Origin: Rhizobiales bacterium NRL2
GTDB lineage: Bacteria > Pseudomonadota > Alphaproteobacteria > Minwuiales > Minwuiaceae
Reading direction: 5' to 3'
Assembly: GCA_001664005.1 (NCBI GenBank)
Contig: CP016093.1
Location: 1,495,001-1,559,000, forward strand
Length of the DNA stretch: 64,000 bases
Positions within the stretch are counted from its first letter, which is position 1; the number at the start of each line of letters is the position of its first letter. The translations under genes were made by a program, and so were the position numbers. Below the pieces are notes generated by a model. That model worked only from the letters and a program-made list of their open reading frames with translations, had not been told where the DNA came from and searched no databases. This document shows, piece by piece, positions 16,951 through 21,530 of the stretch.

Positions 16951-19236
16951 TCAGACGCTGCCGGTCCAGTCCTGCTTCGACAGCGGCAGGTCGCGTACAC
17001 GCTTGCCGGTCAGGCGGAACAGCGCATTGGTCACCGCCGGCGCGATCGGCGGTGTGCCCGGTTCGCCGGCGCCGCCCGGCGCCTCGTCGGAGGCGACGAT
17101 CACCGTCTCGATCTCCGGCATCGTGTCCATCCGCACGACCTCGTAGTCGGGGAAGTTCGACTGCACGACCCGGCCCTTGTCGAAGTTGATCTGGCCCCAG
17201 AGCGCTGCCGAAAGACCGTAGACGATGCCGCTCTCCATCTGCGCGACCAGAGTGTCGGGATTGATCACCGTGCCGCAGTCGACGGCGCAGACGACCCGGT
17301 GGACGCGGGGTTGTCCGTCCTCGATGGAGACTTCGGCGACCTGCGCGACGATGGCGCCGAAGCTCTCGTGCAGGGCGATGCCGCGGGCGCGTCCCTGCGG
17401 CGGCGGGCTGTCCCACCGGGCTGCGTTCGCGGCGGCGTCCAGCACGGCCACATAGCGCGGCTTGTCGCGCATCAGGTGGCGGCGGTAGGCGTAGGGGTCC
17501 TTGCCGGCCCTGTGGGCCAGTTCGTCGATGAAACTCTCGGAAAAGAATGCGTTGTGGGAATGGCCGACCGAGCGCCAGAAACCGATGCGCATCGGCACCC
17601 GGCTCAGCACATGCTCGACACGCATGTTGGGCACCGCATAGGGCAGCCAGGCCGCGCCGTCGACGGTGGTGCGGTCGGGTCCGGCGTCTGACATGAACGG
17701 CATGTAGCGCAGCGTCGCCTGGCCCGAGACGGAGGGGCCGACGACCTTGTTCAGCCATGCGGTGGGATAGCCGTCTGCGTCCAGGGCGGCGCGGAAGTGC
17801 GACAGACCCGCCGGACGGTAGGTGTCCTGGCGGATGTCTTCTTCGCGCGACCAGATCAGCTTCACCGGACGGCCGGGTACGGCGTTGGCCAGCTTCACCG
17901 CCTGCCGGATGAAGTCGGGCTCCGCCCGACGGCCGAAGCCGCCGCCCAGATAGGTCACGTGGACGGTGACGTTTTCCTCCGGCAGGTCGGCTTCGCCGGC
18001 GGCTACCCACTGGCTGACCATCGGCCCCTGTGTCGGGGCCCAGATCTCCAGCTTGTCGTCCTGTCTGAGCGCGGTGCAGTTGATCGGTTCCATCGGCGCG
18101 TGCGCCAGGAAGGGCGCGCGGTAGGTCGCTTCGATGACCTCGCCCGCGGCGTCCAGCGTGGCGGCGGCGTCGCCGTCGTCCTGATAGCCGAAGCCGTCCT
18201 CGGCCAGCGCCGTCTCGAATTCCGCGAAGATGTCAGCGTCGGAAAGTTCCGCCGCCTCCGACATGTCCCAGGTCACGTCCAGCGTGTCCAGGGCCCGCCA
18301 CGCGCGCCAGGGCGCATCGGCGATCACCGCGACGCCGCCGGGCACCGCCATGATGCGGTGGACGCCCGGCATCCGGGCGACCTGCGCGGGATCGAAGCGT
18401 TCGATCCCTGCGCCGACCACCGGCGGATGCTTCACGGCCGCGTAGAGCATCCCCTCCAGCCGGACATCCATGCCGAACACGGCCGATCCATCGACCTTGG
18501 CCGGAATGTCGAGGCGCTGGCGCGGCGTCCCGATGATTCGATAGTCGGAGGGGCTCTTCAGCGCCGGGCTTTCCGGCGGACTCTGCCGCGCGGCGTCCTC
18601 GGCGACGTCGCCATAGGCAAGGGTGCGGCCGCTGCCGGCATGGGTGATCACACTGTCGCGGGCGGTCAGTTCGCCCACCGGCACGTTCAGCCGTTCGGCC
18701 GCGGCGGCCAGCAGCATCGCCTTCGCCGCCGCGCCGGCCTGACGCATCGGTCCCCAGGCCGCGCGCACGCTGGTGGAGCCGCCGGTCGCCTGAACGCCGA
18801 TCAGTGTGGAGAGCCAGGCGCCCATGGAACGCGCCTGGCGCGCCATGAAGCTGTCGTCATGCGGGCCGAAGGGAAAGCCCTCCGGCAGCATCACCTCGTT
18901 GGTGTAGATCGTATCGATCTCGGCGTCGGCGAAGGTGACCTTCGTCCAGTCTGCGTCCAGTTCCTCGGCCAGGATCATGGGCAGGGCCGTCTGCACGCCC
19001 TGGCCCATTTCGCTCCGTGGGACCGCGACGGTCACCGTGCCGTCCCAGGCAATCTTGACCCAGCCATTCAGCGCCGCCTCGTTGGCGGCCGGGTTCATCA
19101 GTTCCTCGGGCGTGCCCGATTCCCCGGGCGTGAGATACCGCCACCCGACGACCAGGCCGGCGCCTGCGACCAGCGCGCCACCGATCAGGAAGCGGCGGCG
19201 GCCGCGGCTTTTCGGCTTTCCGATCTTCTTCGCCAT
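16951..19236 (-). CDS. Molybdopterin-binding xanthine dehydrogenase family subunit (IorB-like), Tat-exported
   Basis: Large catalytic subunit of a two-subunit molybdenum hydroxylase like isoquinoline 1-oxidoreductase beta, 761 residues. A Tat signal is visible at the N-terminus: SRGRRRFLIGGALVAGAGLVV, in which RRRFL gives the twin arginine motif. Later come EMGQGVQTALPMILAEELDADW, LGGGFGRRAEPDF and, near the end, GGAGEPGTPPIAPA, whose glutamate is the expected catalytic base at the molybdenum. The ATG at 19236 follows AGGAGCGG; the open frame extends further upstream but only by shadowing the iorA-like gene. The [2Fe-2S] subunit is encoded 14 bases upstream. No FAD subunit or cytochrome partner is adjacent. 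Substrate unknown, probably an N-heterocycle or aldehyde. Confidence 0.88.
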   Translation of the reverse strand: MAKKIGKPKSRGRRRFLIGGALVAGAGLVVGWRYLTPGESGTPEELMNPAANEAALNGWVKIAWDGTVTVAVPRSEMGQGVQTALPMILAEELDADWTKVTFADAEIDTIYTNEVMLPEGFPFGPHDDSFMARQARSMGAWLSTLIGVQATGGSTSVRAAWGPMRQAGAAAKAMLLAAAAERLNVPVGELTARDSVITHAGSGRTLAYGDVAEDAARQSPPESPALKSPSDYRIIGTPRQRLDIPAKVDGSAVFGMDVRLEGMLYAAVKHPPVVGAGIERFDPAQVARMPGVHRIMAVPGGVAVIADAPWRAWRALDTLDVTWDMSEAAELSDADIFAEFETALAEDGFGYQDDGDAAATLDAAGEVIEATYRAPFLAHAPMEPINCTALRQDDKLEIWAPTQGPMVSQWVAAGEADLPEENVTVHVTYLGGGFGRRAEPDFIRQAVKLANAVPGRPVKLIWSREEDIRQDTYRPAGLSHFRAALDADGYPTAWLNKVVGPSVSGQATLRYMPFMSDAGPDRTTVDGAAWLPYAVPNMRVEHVLSRVPMRIGFWRSVGHSHNAFFSESFIDELAHRAGKDPYAYRRHLMRDKPRYVAVLDAAANAARWDSPPPQGRARGIALHESFGAIVAQVAEVSIEDGQPRVHRVVCAVDCGTVINPDTLVAQMESGIVYGLSAALWGQINFDKGRVVQSNFPDYEVVRMDTMPEIETVIVASDEAPGGAGEPGTPPIAPAVTNALFRLTGKRVRDLPLSKQDWTGSV

Positions 19237-19250
19237 TGTTCCGCTCCTGC

Positions 19251-19691
19251 TCAGGCGCGCGCGGCGCGGTGGATCGCTCGGCGGATGCGGCTGTAGGTGC
19301 CACAGCGGCAGATGTTGGTGATCGCGGCGTCGATGTCGGCGTCGCTCGGCTCGGGCACCTCGTCCAGCAAGGCCGCCGCGGCCATGATCATGCCGGACTG
19401 GCAGTAGCCGCACTGGGGAACCTGCTCGTCGATCCAGGCCTGCTGCAGGCGGTGCAGCCGGCCGATACCTTCGATGGTGGTGATCTCGGCGCCCTCGACG
19501 GCTTCGACGGGCAGAACGCAGGTCGGCGTCGCCACGCCGTCGACATGGACGGTGCAGGCGCCGCATGCGGCCACGCCGCAGCCGAATTTCGTGCCGGTCA
19601 GTCCCAGGGTCTCGCGGATGACCCAGAGGAGCGGGGCGTCGCCCTCCACGTCAACCGTGACCGGTTCGCCATTCAGGACGAAGCTCGCCAT
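19251..19691 (-). CDS. (2Fe-2S)-binding small subunit of molybdenum hydroxylase (IorA-like)
   Basis: Electron-transfer subunit of 146 residues for the neighbouring IorB-like protein. The N-terminal plant-type ferredoxin domain has [16 protein letters not shown] with the spaced cysteines, and the C-terminal helical domain has CGYCQSGMI and [13 protein letters not shown], binding a second [2Fe-2S] cluster. This is the two-cluster architecture of the IorA, CoxS and QorS group. With no Tat signal of its own it is probably exported together with IorB. It lies between the TetR regulator gene and iorB on one strand, with a palindromic operator in the promoter region 57 bases upstream of the start. 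Confidence 0.92.
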
Positions 19692-19747
19692 TCCCGCCTC
19701 CCGAGATGCCGGCGATACAGCCGGCGGAGATTCAATGATGCCAACTT

Positions 19748-19766
19748 AACTGACCAAGGGTCAGTT
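19748..19766. promoter_or_regulatory. TetR operator candidate upstream of iorA
   Basis: Perfect inverted repeat AACTGACC-AAG-GGTCAGTT, eight bases each side of a three-base spacer. It overlaps the TetR gene stop codon and lies 57 bases before the iorA-like start. Its CTGACC-N3-GGTCAG core is identical to the site in front of the TetR gene, which strongly suggests one regulator binds both. Confidence 0.8.
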
Positions 19767-20414
19767 ATCAAGAACCGCAGCGAGCAGGGCGGCGAGGCCG
19801 GGGCGGACCACCGTCTCGAAATCCGGCCGGAGGTTCTGGAACTCGGCCCGTTTCATGACGTTGCGCGCCGATTTCGGTGGATCGGAGACCTGCCACAGGC
19901 CGATGACCAGGGCATAGATCTGCAGCAGCAGGGCCGGCCCGTCGCCCGGACCCAGCTTCGGAATCCGCGCCTCGGCAAGCGCACCGAGCTCGGCGAGGGC
20001 GCCGGATGTCGCCTGCTTGAAGGCGAGCACGGCATCCTCCGCAACCTGGCGCTCCAGGGTGCCATGACACTGGGCGGCCAGCCGCAGCATTACCGTGCGG
20101 CTGCGCAGGTCGGCGGTCATCCACTCTGCGATGCCTTCCGGGCTCGGCGTGCCGCCTTCCAGCGAGGCGGCGATGGCGTTGACCCAGGCTTCAAGCTCGT
20201 CGGTGAACAGGGCGAGGAAGATTTCCTCCTTGGCGCCGAAATAGAGATAGACCGTACCCTTCGCCAGGCCGGCCCGTTTCGCCACCTGGTCCACGCTGGG
20301 AAGCTCCCCGTCGGTTTCCACGAACAGGTCGCGGGCCGCGGTCAGGATGGTCTGACGGCGTTGTGCCTTCTCGATATCGCCGCGGGCGCGTCTGGGTCTG
20401 GTGGTGTCGGCCAT
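19761..20414 (-). CDS. TetR/AcrR family transcriptional regulator
   Basis: Repressor of 217 residues. The N-terminal helix-turn-helix, about residues 18-64, reads RRQTILTAARDLFVETDGEL, VDQVAKRAGLAKGTVYLYF and GAKEEIFLALF, a typical TetR domain. The C-terminal ligand-binding part is helical with no named subfamily. The ATG at 20414 matches the domain start; the long open frame beyond it has no support. A perfect palindrome (20416-20432) sits immediately upstream of the start and a matching one (19748-19766) overlaps its stop and precedes iorA, so it probably represses itself and the IorAB enzyme. The ligand may be the enzyme's substrate. Confidence 0.92.
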   Translation of the reverse strand: MADTTRPRRARGDIEKAQRRQTILTAARDLFVETDGELPSVDQVAKRAGLAKGTVYLYFGAKEEIFLALFTDELEAWVNAIAASLEGGTPSPEGIAEWMTADLRSRTVMLRLAAQCHGTLERQVAEDAVLAFKQATSGALAELGALAEARIPKLGPGDGPALLLQIYALVIGLWQVSDPPKSARNVMKRAEFQNLRPDFETVVRPGLAALLAAVLDN

Positions 20415-20415
20415 A

Positions 20416-20432
20416 GCTGACCCAAGGTCAGC
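20416..20432. promoter_or_regulatory. TetR operator candidate upstream of tetR-like gene
   Basis: Perfect inverted repeat GCTGACC-CAA-GGTCAGC, adjacent to the start codon of the TetR gene and 106 bases before the divergent DMT transporter. It shares the CTGACC-N3-GGTCAG core with the site at 19748-19766. Being this close to the start it would block the regulator's own transcript; it could also affect the transporter. Confidence 0.8.
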
Positions 20433-20537
20433 AATGGCGCTGCCCCTGTCAAGCGGCGGACGCGGGTGGCCGCCCATGCATGCGCCACTGCGGACAGCGC
20501 AATGGATCGGCAGGGATTTCCGGCATAATCTCCGTCG

Positions 20538-21530
20538 ATGCCTGCTCACGACCATCCCGAGCCCCTGCCTCACGAGAAGGCCGAGGAAGCCCGCCTGCGC
20601 AATCGCGGGGTGCTGGTCGGCATGGGCTATCTGGTGCTTTCGGGCCTGCTGTTTGCTGTCTTCACGGCCATTGTCAGGTGGGTCTCCAGCGACCTTCACC
20701 CGGCGGAAACCGCCTTCATCCGCTACCTCTTCGGATTCCTGTTCCTGCTGCCGATCTTCATGGGCGCCCGGCGGCGCGAACTGAAGACCAAGCGGCCGGT
20801 GATGCATGTGCTCCGCGGCCTGATCCACGGTACCGGCGTGCTGCTGTGGTTCTACGCCATCGCCAAGATCACCCTGGCGGAAGTCACCGCGCTGGCCTTC
20901 ACCGCGCCGGTCTGGGCGACGCTCGGCGCCTTTCTCTTTCTCGGCGAGACGGTCCGGGCCCGGCGCATCGCCGCGGTGCTGATCGGCCTGCTCGGCGCGC
21001 TGATCGTGCTCTTCGGCATTCCCTCCTCCCAGGCGGAACTGATGGCGAATCTGAGCGGCATCGGCCTGGGACAGTTCGCGATCCTCGTTGCCGCGCCTCT
21101 GTTCGCCTGCTCCAAGCTGATGACCAAGCGGCTGACCGATACCGAAAACACGACGGCGATCGTCGCCTGGCTGTCGCTGACGGTGACCGTGGTGCTGGCC
21201 ATACCGGCGATCACGGTCTGGCGGATGCCGTCGCTGGAGGAATGGCTCTCGCTGGCCGCTGTCGCGGCGCTGGCCACCACCGCTCACATCTGCATGACCC
21301 GCGCCTGGCAGGCCGCCGACATTTCCGTGACCCAGCCCGTGGAGTTCCTGCAACTGGTCTGGGCTTCCCTGATCGGCATCTACATGTTCGGCGAGACGCC
21401 CACCCTCGGCATCTGGATCGGCGGCGCCGTGATCGTGGGCTCCGCCAGCTACATCGCGCACCGCGAGGCGCTGACACGGCGCCAGGAGCGGACGGCGGAA
21501 GCGGTTGCGGCCCGGCCGCATGCAACTTAA
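20538..21530 (+). CDS. DMT (EamA) family transporter
   Basis: Ten-helix drug/metabolite transporter of 330 residues with two EamA repeats (about residues 25-160 and 170-310). Visible features are MGYLVLSGLLFAVFTAIVRW as the first helix, LAFTAPVWATLGAFLFLGE ending the first repeat, and VEFLQLVWASLIGIYMFGE ending the second, both with the family's GE after the helix. The family exports amino acids, drugs or metabolites, and the direction and substrate are unknown. It is transcribed away from the TetR gene across a short region containing the TetR operator, so it may be part of the same regulon. Confidence 0.9.
   Translation: MPAHDHPEPLPHEKAEEARLRNRGVLVGMGYLVLSGLLFAVFTAIVRWVSSDLHPAETAFIRYLFGFLFLLPIFMGARRRELKTKRPVMHVLRGLIHGTGVLLWFYAIAKITLAEVTALAFTAPVWATLGAFLFLGETVRARRIAAVLIGLLGALIVLFGIPSSQAELMANLSGIGLGQFAILVAAPLFACSKLMTKRLTDTENTTAIVAWLSLTVTVVLAIPAITVWRMPSLEEWLSLAAVAALATTAHICMTRAWQAADISVTQPVEFLQLVWASLIGIYMFGETPTLGIWIGGAVIVGSASYIAHREALTRRQERTAEAVAARPHAT

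Follow-up and report, generated by a model that had tools for sequence, protein, structure and literature searches.

The locus described here can be compared with two kinds of system. Its proposed switch is of a known kind, a TetR repressor with operators at a target and at its own gene, and its proposed target resembles the two-subunit molybdenum enzymes of the IorAB type. Among the regulators, SbtR (TTHA0167, PDB 3VUQ) from Thermus thermophilus is a TetR-family repressor with the same half-site, TGACC/GGTCA, and its published sites are of the form TGACC-N4-GGTCA, such as TGACCCGCTGGTCA, with the selected consensus TGACYRNNYRGTCA; binding to the selected TGACT-type consensus is among the measurements given there (PMC4948773). 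SbtR differs from the regulator studied here in the spacer (N4 versus N3) and in regulating other genes, and our loci do not show the SbtR-type operator, as a spacer of 4 is exact in 0/42 of them versus 21/42 for a spacer of 3. The TetR studied here matches 3vuq_A weakly in a profile search (5.9e-08) and with the DNA-binding part alone (profile positions 18-87). Among solved structures, the TetR-family protein PDB 2zcx matches it best across the greater part of the sequence (4.6e-14 with the protein, residues 8-186; 5.1e-23 with the profile), and it has the recognition helix GMHKSALLRYF instead of GLAKGTVYLYF. No paper naming 2ZCX was found in the literature searched; its gene is presumably sco7815. 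The latter name appears in the available text of PMC3737563 just in connection with a remote site. Among the papers listed by our searches of open-licence PubMed Central, we found no title or abstract describing a TetR operator for iorAB, and no paper for the sequence TGACCNNNGGTCA.

On the side of the enzyme, isoquinoline 1-oxidoreductase IorAB is likewise made of two subunits carrying [2Fe-2S] centres and molybdopterin, and no FAD-domain protein is present among the seven neighbouring proteins scanned. The domain make-up found here is that of the IorAB type, with Fer2 and Fer2_2 in the small and MoCoBD_1 and MoCoBD_2 in the large subunit. Since none of the NCBIfam models reaches its cut-off and an aldehyde dehydrogenase (8gy3_C, 4.1e-81) is the solved protein nearest to the large subunit, we do not keep the name IorAB used in the original prediction and refer to the protein, judged by its domains, as an IorAB-like enzyme of the xanthine-oxidase family. 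The aldehyde dehydrogenase complex PDB 8gy3 presumably includes a cytochrome subunit, whereas none was seen near the genes described here, the sole CxxCH in an open frame of at least about 90 codons between 13001 and 24000 (+ strand, 16743) opposing another gene. To our knowledge, the substrates of IorAB-like molybdenum enzymes are often unknown. Available accounts tie one such enzyme to the oxidation of deoxyribose in Pseudomonas simiae (PMC6365646) and propose another for glyceraldehyde in P. putida (PMC7188995), and in PMC9765128 the name IorAB is given to another enzyme. The Tat-type signal (RGRRRFL) of the large subunit indicates that the oxidation probably takes place in the periplasm, while the TetR would sense the cytoplasm.

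The features of the locus are listed in Table 1, and "window" refers to the whole stretch of 64,000 nucleotides that was analysed. The TetR has a helix-turn-helix domain at its N terminus (PF00440, 2.8e-12, residues 23-69) and a TetR-type ligand-binding domain at its C terminus (PF17929, 3e-26). A formylglutamate amidohydrolase gene and a YbdK-like gene lie downstream of iorB and were considered as members of the operon; they were rejected, being absent from the stretch covered past iorB in two relatives (G003, about 3 kb; G002, about 1.3 kb).

Table 1: Features of the tetR-iorAB locus, in positions of the window; operators and promoter elements are predicted.
Feature	Position	Strand	Remarks
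iorB-like gene, large molybdopterin subunit	16951..19236	-	761 aa; Tat-type signal RGRRRFLIGG; GGAGEP motif near C terminus
iorA-like gene, small subunit	19251..19691	-	146 aa; two [2Fe-2S] domains (PF01799, 7.6e-28; PF00111, 3.5e-08); 8 cysteines
Predicted -10, iorAB promoter	19743..19748	-	TAAGTT, weak (3 of 6); 17 bp from -35
Putative operator, iorAB promoter	19748..19766	.	TGA within it is the tetR stop codon; 13-mer core kept
tetR	19761..20414	-	217 aa; TetR_N and TetR_C_34
Predicted -35, iorAB promoter	19766..19771	-	TTGATA, within the last tetR codons; in 8/8 loci of the order
Putative operator, tetR promoter	20416..20432	.	one base from tetR ATG; counterparts in relatives
Predicted -35, tetR promoter	20447..20452	-	TTGACA; operator covers the expected -10
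EamA/DMT transporter gene	20538..21530	+	divergent neighbour of tetR; PF00892, 4.4e-31

Read directly from the sequence, tetR lies between two perfect palindromes. The one on the iorA side is AACTGACCAAGGGTCAGTT, with arms of 8 bp and a spacer of 3 bp (AACTGACC-AAG-GGTCAGTT), and the one in front of tetR is GCTGACCCAAGGTCAGC, with arms of 7 bp and again a spacer of 3 bp (GCTGACC-CAA-GGTCAGC), the letters of the two spacers being unlike (AAG versus CAA). As the original prediction had stated, CTGACC-N3-GGTCAG is present at both places with 0 mismatches, and the iorA-side palindrome overlaps the stop codon of tetR (TGA at 19763-19761, minus strand); a single base separates the other palindrome from the tetR ATG (20414). 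Both parts of the layout of a self-regulated TetR, a palindrome at the target and one at its own promoter, are thus present in the window. Very probably, the TetR encoded between the two palindromes uses both as operators and would block the promoters of the iorAB-like operon and of tetR until released by a ligand. According to this model, a TetR dimer would bind TGACC-N3-GGTCA with its AT-rich flanks; at the iorA-side palindrome it would lie in the spacer from -35 (TTGATA) to -10 in the promoter of the iorAB-like operon, keeping RNA polymerase away, and at the other it would cover the -10/start region of its own TTGACA promoter and so repress itself. A small molecule freeing the TetR would then switch on tetR and the probably periplasmic molybdenum oxidoreductase together. 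The predicted repression of iorAB and tetR by this TetR is well supported by the comparisons that follow.

The exact 15-mer CTGACC-N3-GGTCAG occurs in the 64-kb window at just these two sites, the expectation from Markov models of orders 0-3 trained on the window being 0.005-0.016 copies per 64 kb, and 15 places match with up to two mismatches versus a mean of 3.66 and a maximum of 7 after shuffling. The search of the whole genome (4,700,671 bases, 4.70 Mb) that had been proposed together with the prediction gave 3 exact copies versus 0.4-1.1 expected, two of which are those flanking tetR, 667 bp apart. If one mismatch is tolerated, the genome has 46 places whereas the reversed pattern has 10, and a near-match by itself therefore carries little weight. 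The remaining exact copy (C1:3112410-3112424, or L003:1501-1515, of the window's own genome, G000) has the same spacer as the site in front of tetR and is intergenic, flanked by a ParB-like ORF and by a 325-aa ORF without known function; it is best read as chance. A 19-base pattern with up to two mismatches is found at 18 places of this genome versus 2 for the reversed control, and from these the two sites at tetR are backed by conservation and the place at 3112408 was inspected and judged to be chance. Two further IorB homologues are encoded in the genome (E <= 1e-40, 45% and 37% identity), and none of the 18 places adjoins them. The extra exact copy without a fitting neighbour is what one might cite for the view that all of these palindromes arose by chance in GC-rich DNA; given that the site is kept in four families, stands out in permutation controls and follows the TetR in 8/8 versus 0/22 loci (see below), this view is extremely improbable.

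Conservation was followed in the window's order, for which 9 genomes were available including the window's own, 8 of them carrying the TetR at E <= 1e-20. In the gap between tetR and iorA, the window and its seven relatives (L017-L024) have TGACC-N3-GGTCA with at most one mismatch in 8/8 loci, 7 of them exact and L022 with one mismatch, and among the more distant members of the order little else in the gap aligns well apart from this site and the beginning of iorA. The site upstream of tetR is found in 7/7 loci of the order with upstream sequence, exact in the window and G007; the one mismatch in the sites of G003, G005, G008, G004 and G002 speaks against the operator reading, since 5/7 of the sites at the tetR promoter are thus of the TGACT-N3-GGTCA type. 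Together with profile searches of 385 genomes of the class, 398 of the phylum and two orders (5 and 25 genomes) a collection of 47 loci was compiled. IorA adjoins TetR in 24 of them, which span the families f1, f2, f42 and f91 and include co-directional as well as divergent gene orders; 13 come from one genus of f42, and the relatives counted here are not statistically independent. All 24 have TGACC-N3-GGTCA in the gap, 21 exact and three (L022, L037, L071) with one mismatch, so that in this collection every relative keeping tetR-iorAB has the core with at most one mismatch, and the absence that would have refuted the original prediction is not seen.

Along iorA, the 24 gap sites give a logo in which TGAC and GTCA are invariant (24/24), the inner C and G follow with 23/24 and 22/24, one position further out C or A (23/24) and T or G (22/24) are found, and the flanks are AT-rich. 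From the core originally predicted, the 13-mer TGACC-N3-GGTCA therefore stands as the conserved part, while the outermost C/G pair of the 15-mer CTGACC-N3-GGTCAG is variable and lies outside of it. For a permutation control the collection was reduced to 42 loci by removing near-duplicates. TGACC with a spacer of 3 is exact in 21/42, whereas none of the other 59 letter permutations exceeds 2/42 and spacers of 0-2 and 4-8 yield no more than 1. The control is less clean when one mismatch is tolerated (27/42, while the best of the other permutations gives 20 and their median is 4), so the sites with one mismatch lean on their position and not on this control. In G009, the TetR linked to IorAB has a different helix, VKSNLYRYF, and the site is altered to TGACCTATAGTCA (L037:2321, L047:3196). 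As the iorA-side palindrome overlaps the tetR stop codon and by its sequence can pair as an 8-bp stem, it might also be regarded as an RNA element, for example the transcription terminator of tetR. This is highly improbable, because no T run follows the palindrome, the letters themselves are conserved (TGAC and GTCA in 24/24) and the element also occurs between divergent genes and before tetR.

In order to see what the site goes along with, IorB was searched in the class at E <= 1e-170, giving 33 matches in 31/385 genomes, 30 of them with loci, for which 1.8 kb on the upstream side were inspected. The TetR subfamily is present in 8/30, and here the site is found in the tetR-iorA gap in 8/8 with at most one mismatch. 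The remaining 22 loci have no TetR of this subfamily (20 without any match to the TetR profile, 2 with weak matches of about 1e-12, the one of G130 with the helix ISRPALYLMF) and the site is next to iorA in 0/22, iorA being unrecognised in 4; this includes two IorAB loci with another kind of TetR, which have no site in the gap. Fisher's exact test for 8/8 versus 0/22 gives 1.7e-7 with the loci taken as independent though they are related. Three stray matches occur further away. Two have one mismatch and lie about 990 bp ahead of iorA (L122) and about 1.1 kb ahead of iorB, with iorA unrecognised (L132); the third, which counts against our reading, is an exact 13-mer in L130, located about 770 bp ahead of iorA and within the frame of another TetR. 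G001, from the window's own family, has IorAB (IorB 48-49% identical) without an ortholog of the TetR and no site in 6 kb. Thus, the site follows the TetR. The single binding protein that had been postulated for both sites is accordingly identified, at the level of prediction, with this TetR (24/24 linked loci, 0/22 next to iorA without the subfamily), and the predicted control of tetR and iorAB gains support from the conservation of the operator and its tracking of the subfamily.

Not every homologue of the TetR has such a site. Counting against the operator reading, 17 further homologues, which have neither an IorAB nor a short-chain dehydrogenase match, show no exact site within about 1.5 kb on either side, and in 2 of them a match with one mismatch is found (ahead of tetR in L033 and inside another gene in L036). 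The helix AKGTVYLYF was considered as a marker of the operator and rejected when taken alone, as ten of these 17 homologues (L028, L033, L035, L036, L038, L049, L051, L052, L056 and L061) carry AKGTxYLY-like helices although their loci lack an exact site.

Conversely, a search of the 385 class genomes for the extended motif TWAMTGACCNNNGGTCAKTWA, tolerating one mismatch, gave 25 places in 20 genomes, whereas the reversed control gave 9 in 8 genomes. It is exact at 9 places, 8 of which lie by a TetR of this profile: IorAB is present at G000, G003 and G005, a short-chain dehydrogenase at G346, G266, G041 and G169, and G308 is the eighth. The exact place in G385 has no such TetR within 1.5 kb and just dehydrogenase matches some 900 bp away. 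From 17 loci scanned for this motif 8 have such a TetR, 1 has a weak one and 8 have none, some of which will be chance as judged from the reversed control. In three loci of related genomes (L080, L081 and L082 from G128, G316 and G231) the extended motif is far from the TetR homologue that the profile detects, L082 having a weak TetR nearby (4.8e-07). The 8/17 motif-only loci that have no TetR of this profile in the surrounding 1.5 kb, together with the use of TGACC half-sites by other regulators such as SbtR, could suggest that another regulator reads the sites and that the neighbouring TetR is incidental. We regard this as very unlikely, since the site co-occurs with this TetR subfamily and IorAB without the TetR has none next to iorA.

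The position of the sites also fits an operator function of the TetR. The promoter elements named here are predicted from sequence matches. In the iorAB promoter the 15-bp operator core fills the spacer between the predicted -35 and -10, G006 being best fitted with a spacer of 16, and the -10 reads TATATC, TATATA or TAAATT in 6/7 relatives of the order. In 8/8 loci of the order tetR ends with CTT-GAT-(AAC or AGC)-TGA, which spells TTGATA and the start of the operator. In ten genes of the window CTT is used for 12/322 Leu and GAT for 48/221 Asp, and that CTT GAT nevertheless stays constant at the end of tetR suggests that the DNA itself is under selection. At the 14 divergent loci (G009 and 13 of f42) TTGACA, or TTGACT in L031, is followed 17-18 bases on by a -10-like hexamer, this promoter-like match lying directly before the operator and in G009 reaching one base into it. 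Against this stand the weak -10 of the window (TAAGTT), the poor -35 as the only element in L029 and the lack of a fitting promoter around the site in L078. Upstream of tetR, TTGACA lies 16 bases before TGACC in the loci of the genus and 24 bases before it in G002, with CATTAA in between. As just 32 bases separate the -35 from the ATG of tetR in the window and the operator is one base from this ATG, the tetR mRNA may be leaderless or nearly so. In G003, provided that tetR begins with the ATG at L019:1477, about 50 more bases lie between the operator and the gene.

Some TetR-family proteins activate transcription, and sites that overlap promoter elements or lie between them would be compatible with activation. 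Binding of the TetR to both sites as an activator or with a dual effect is nevertheless unlikely, as the spacer between -35 and -10 in the window's order and the position directly after the -10 in the divergent loci are placements of steric repression. Plain repression by the TetR is our preferred reading.

In four loci from four genera a second operator (9/10 letters) is located exactly 22 bp from the first (L021:2152/2174, L024:1460/1482, L032:571/593, L042:736/758); G003 has a weaker one at this distance (7/10) and in the window it is absent (3/10). Such a tandem suggests that two TetR dimers might bind cooperatively on one face of the DNA. By mean score over 36 loci an offset of 22 is not the top one, and an offset of -44 also gives four loci at 7/10.

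With respect to the ligand, the original prediction equated it with the substrate of IorAB, which we do not follow, mainly because the linkage to IorAB changed repeatedly while the operator stayed, and also because the enzyme is probably periplasmic and the TetR cytoplasmic. Relatives of the TetR keep the operator beside short-chain dehydrogenases: from the 47 loci 6 show a match to such an enzyme, and in 5 of these (L032 and L039-L042, with L039-L041 from one genus) the exact site is found before that gene. No IorAB was seen beside these loci, and the sixth (L050), a weak match with 30% identity, has no site. In a gene tree of 49 TetR sequences, which has long branches, the linkage to IorAB needs 4 changes, at least 3 of them by well-supported branches, so that IorAB neighbours were acquired or dropped several times with the operator retained. 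It is conceivable, though we offer this tentatively and as the less probable case, that the subfamily kept TGACC-N3-GGTCA with its AT-rich flanks while its target was exchanged, being in some members an IorAB-like molybdoenzyme of the periplasm and in others a short-chain dehydrogenase of the cytoplasm, with all members sensing one class of ligand. If so, this class may be aldehydes or related carbonyl compounds, which both types of enzyme handle.

The divergent DMT gene, which the original prediction had noted beside one of the sites, is not counted in the regulon, as neither a promoter nor conservation supports its inclusion: across the 47 loci it is beside tetR just inside the genus. The operator lies 106 bp before the start of this gene, and the best promoter-like match between them is weak (7 of 12) and begins about 70 bp from the site. 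DMT adjoins tetR in the window and 5/6 relatives of the genus, the locus of G006 ending before it could show, and no match beside tetR was found in G002 or in the loci of other families. In G293 and G201 (L140:4056-7001, L141:3636-6501) DMT, nitroreductase and IorAB genes follow each other in a row without a TetR match, with DMT upstream, which makes this a second lineage with DMT and IorAB as neighbours. A functional link between DMT and IorAB is possible.

In summary, the analysis puts forward a concrete candidate operator, and a candidate promoter, through which a TetR would control IorAB-like molybdenum enzymes, and TGACC-N3-GGTCA is a usable search motif for this TetR subfamily. A reporter on the iorAB promoter would allow screening for inducers and thereby offer a route to the physiological role of the enzyme.
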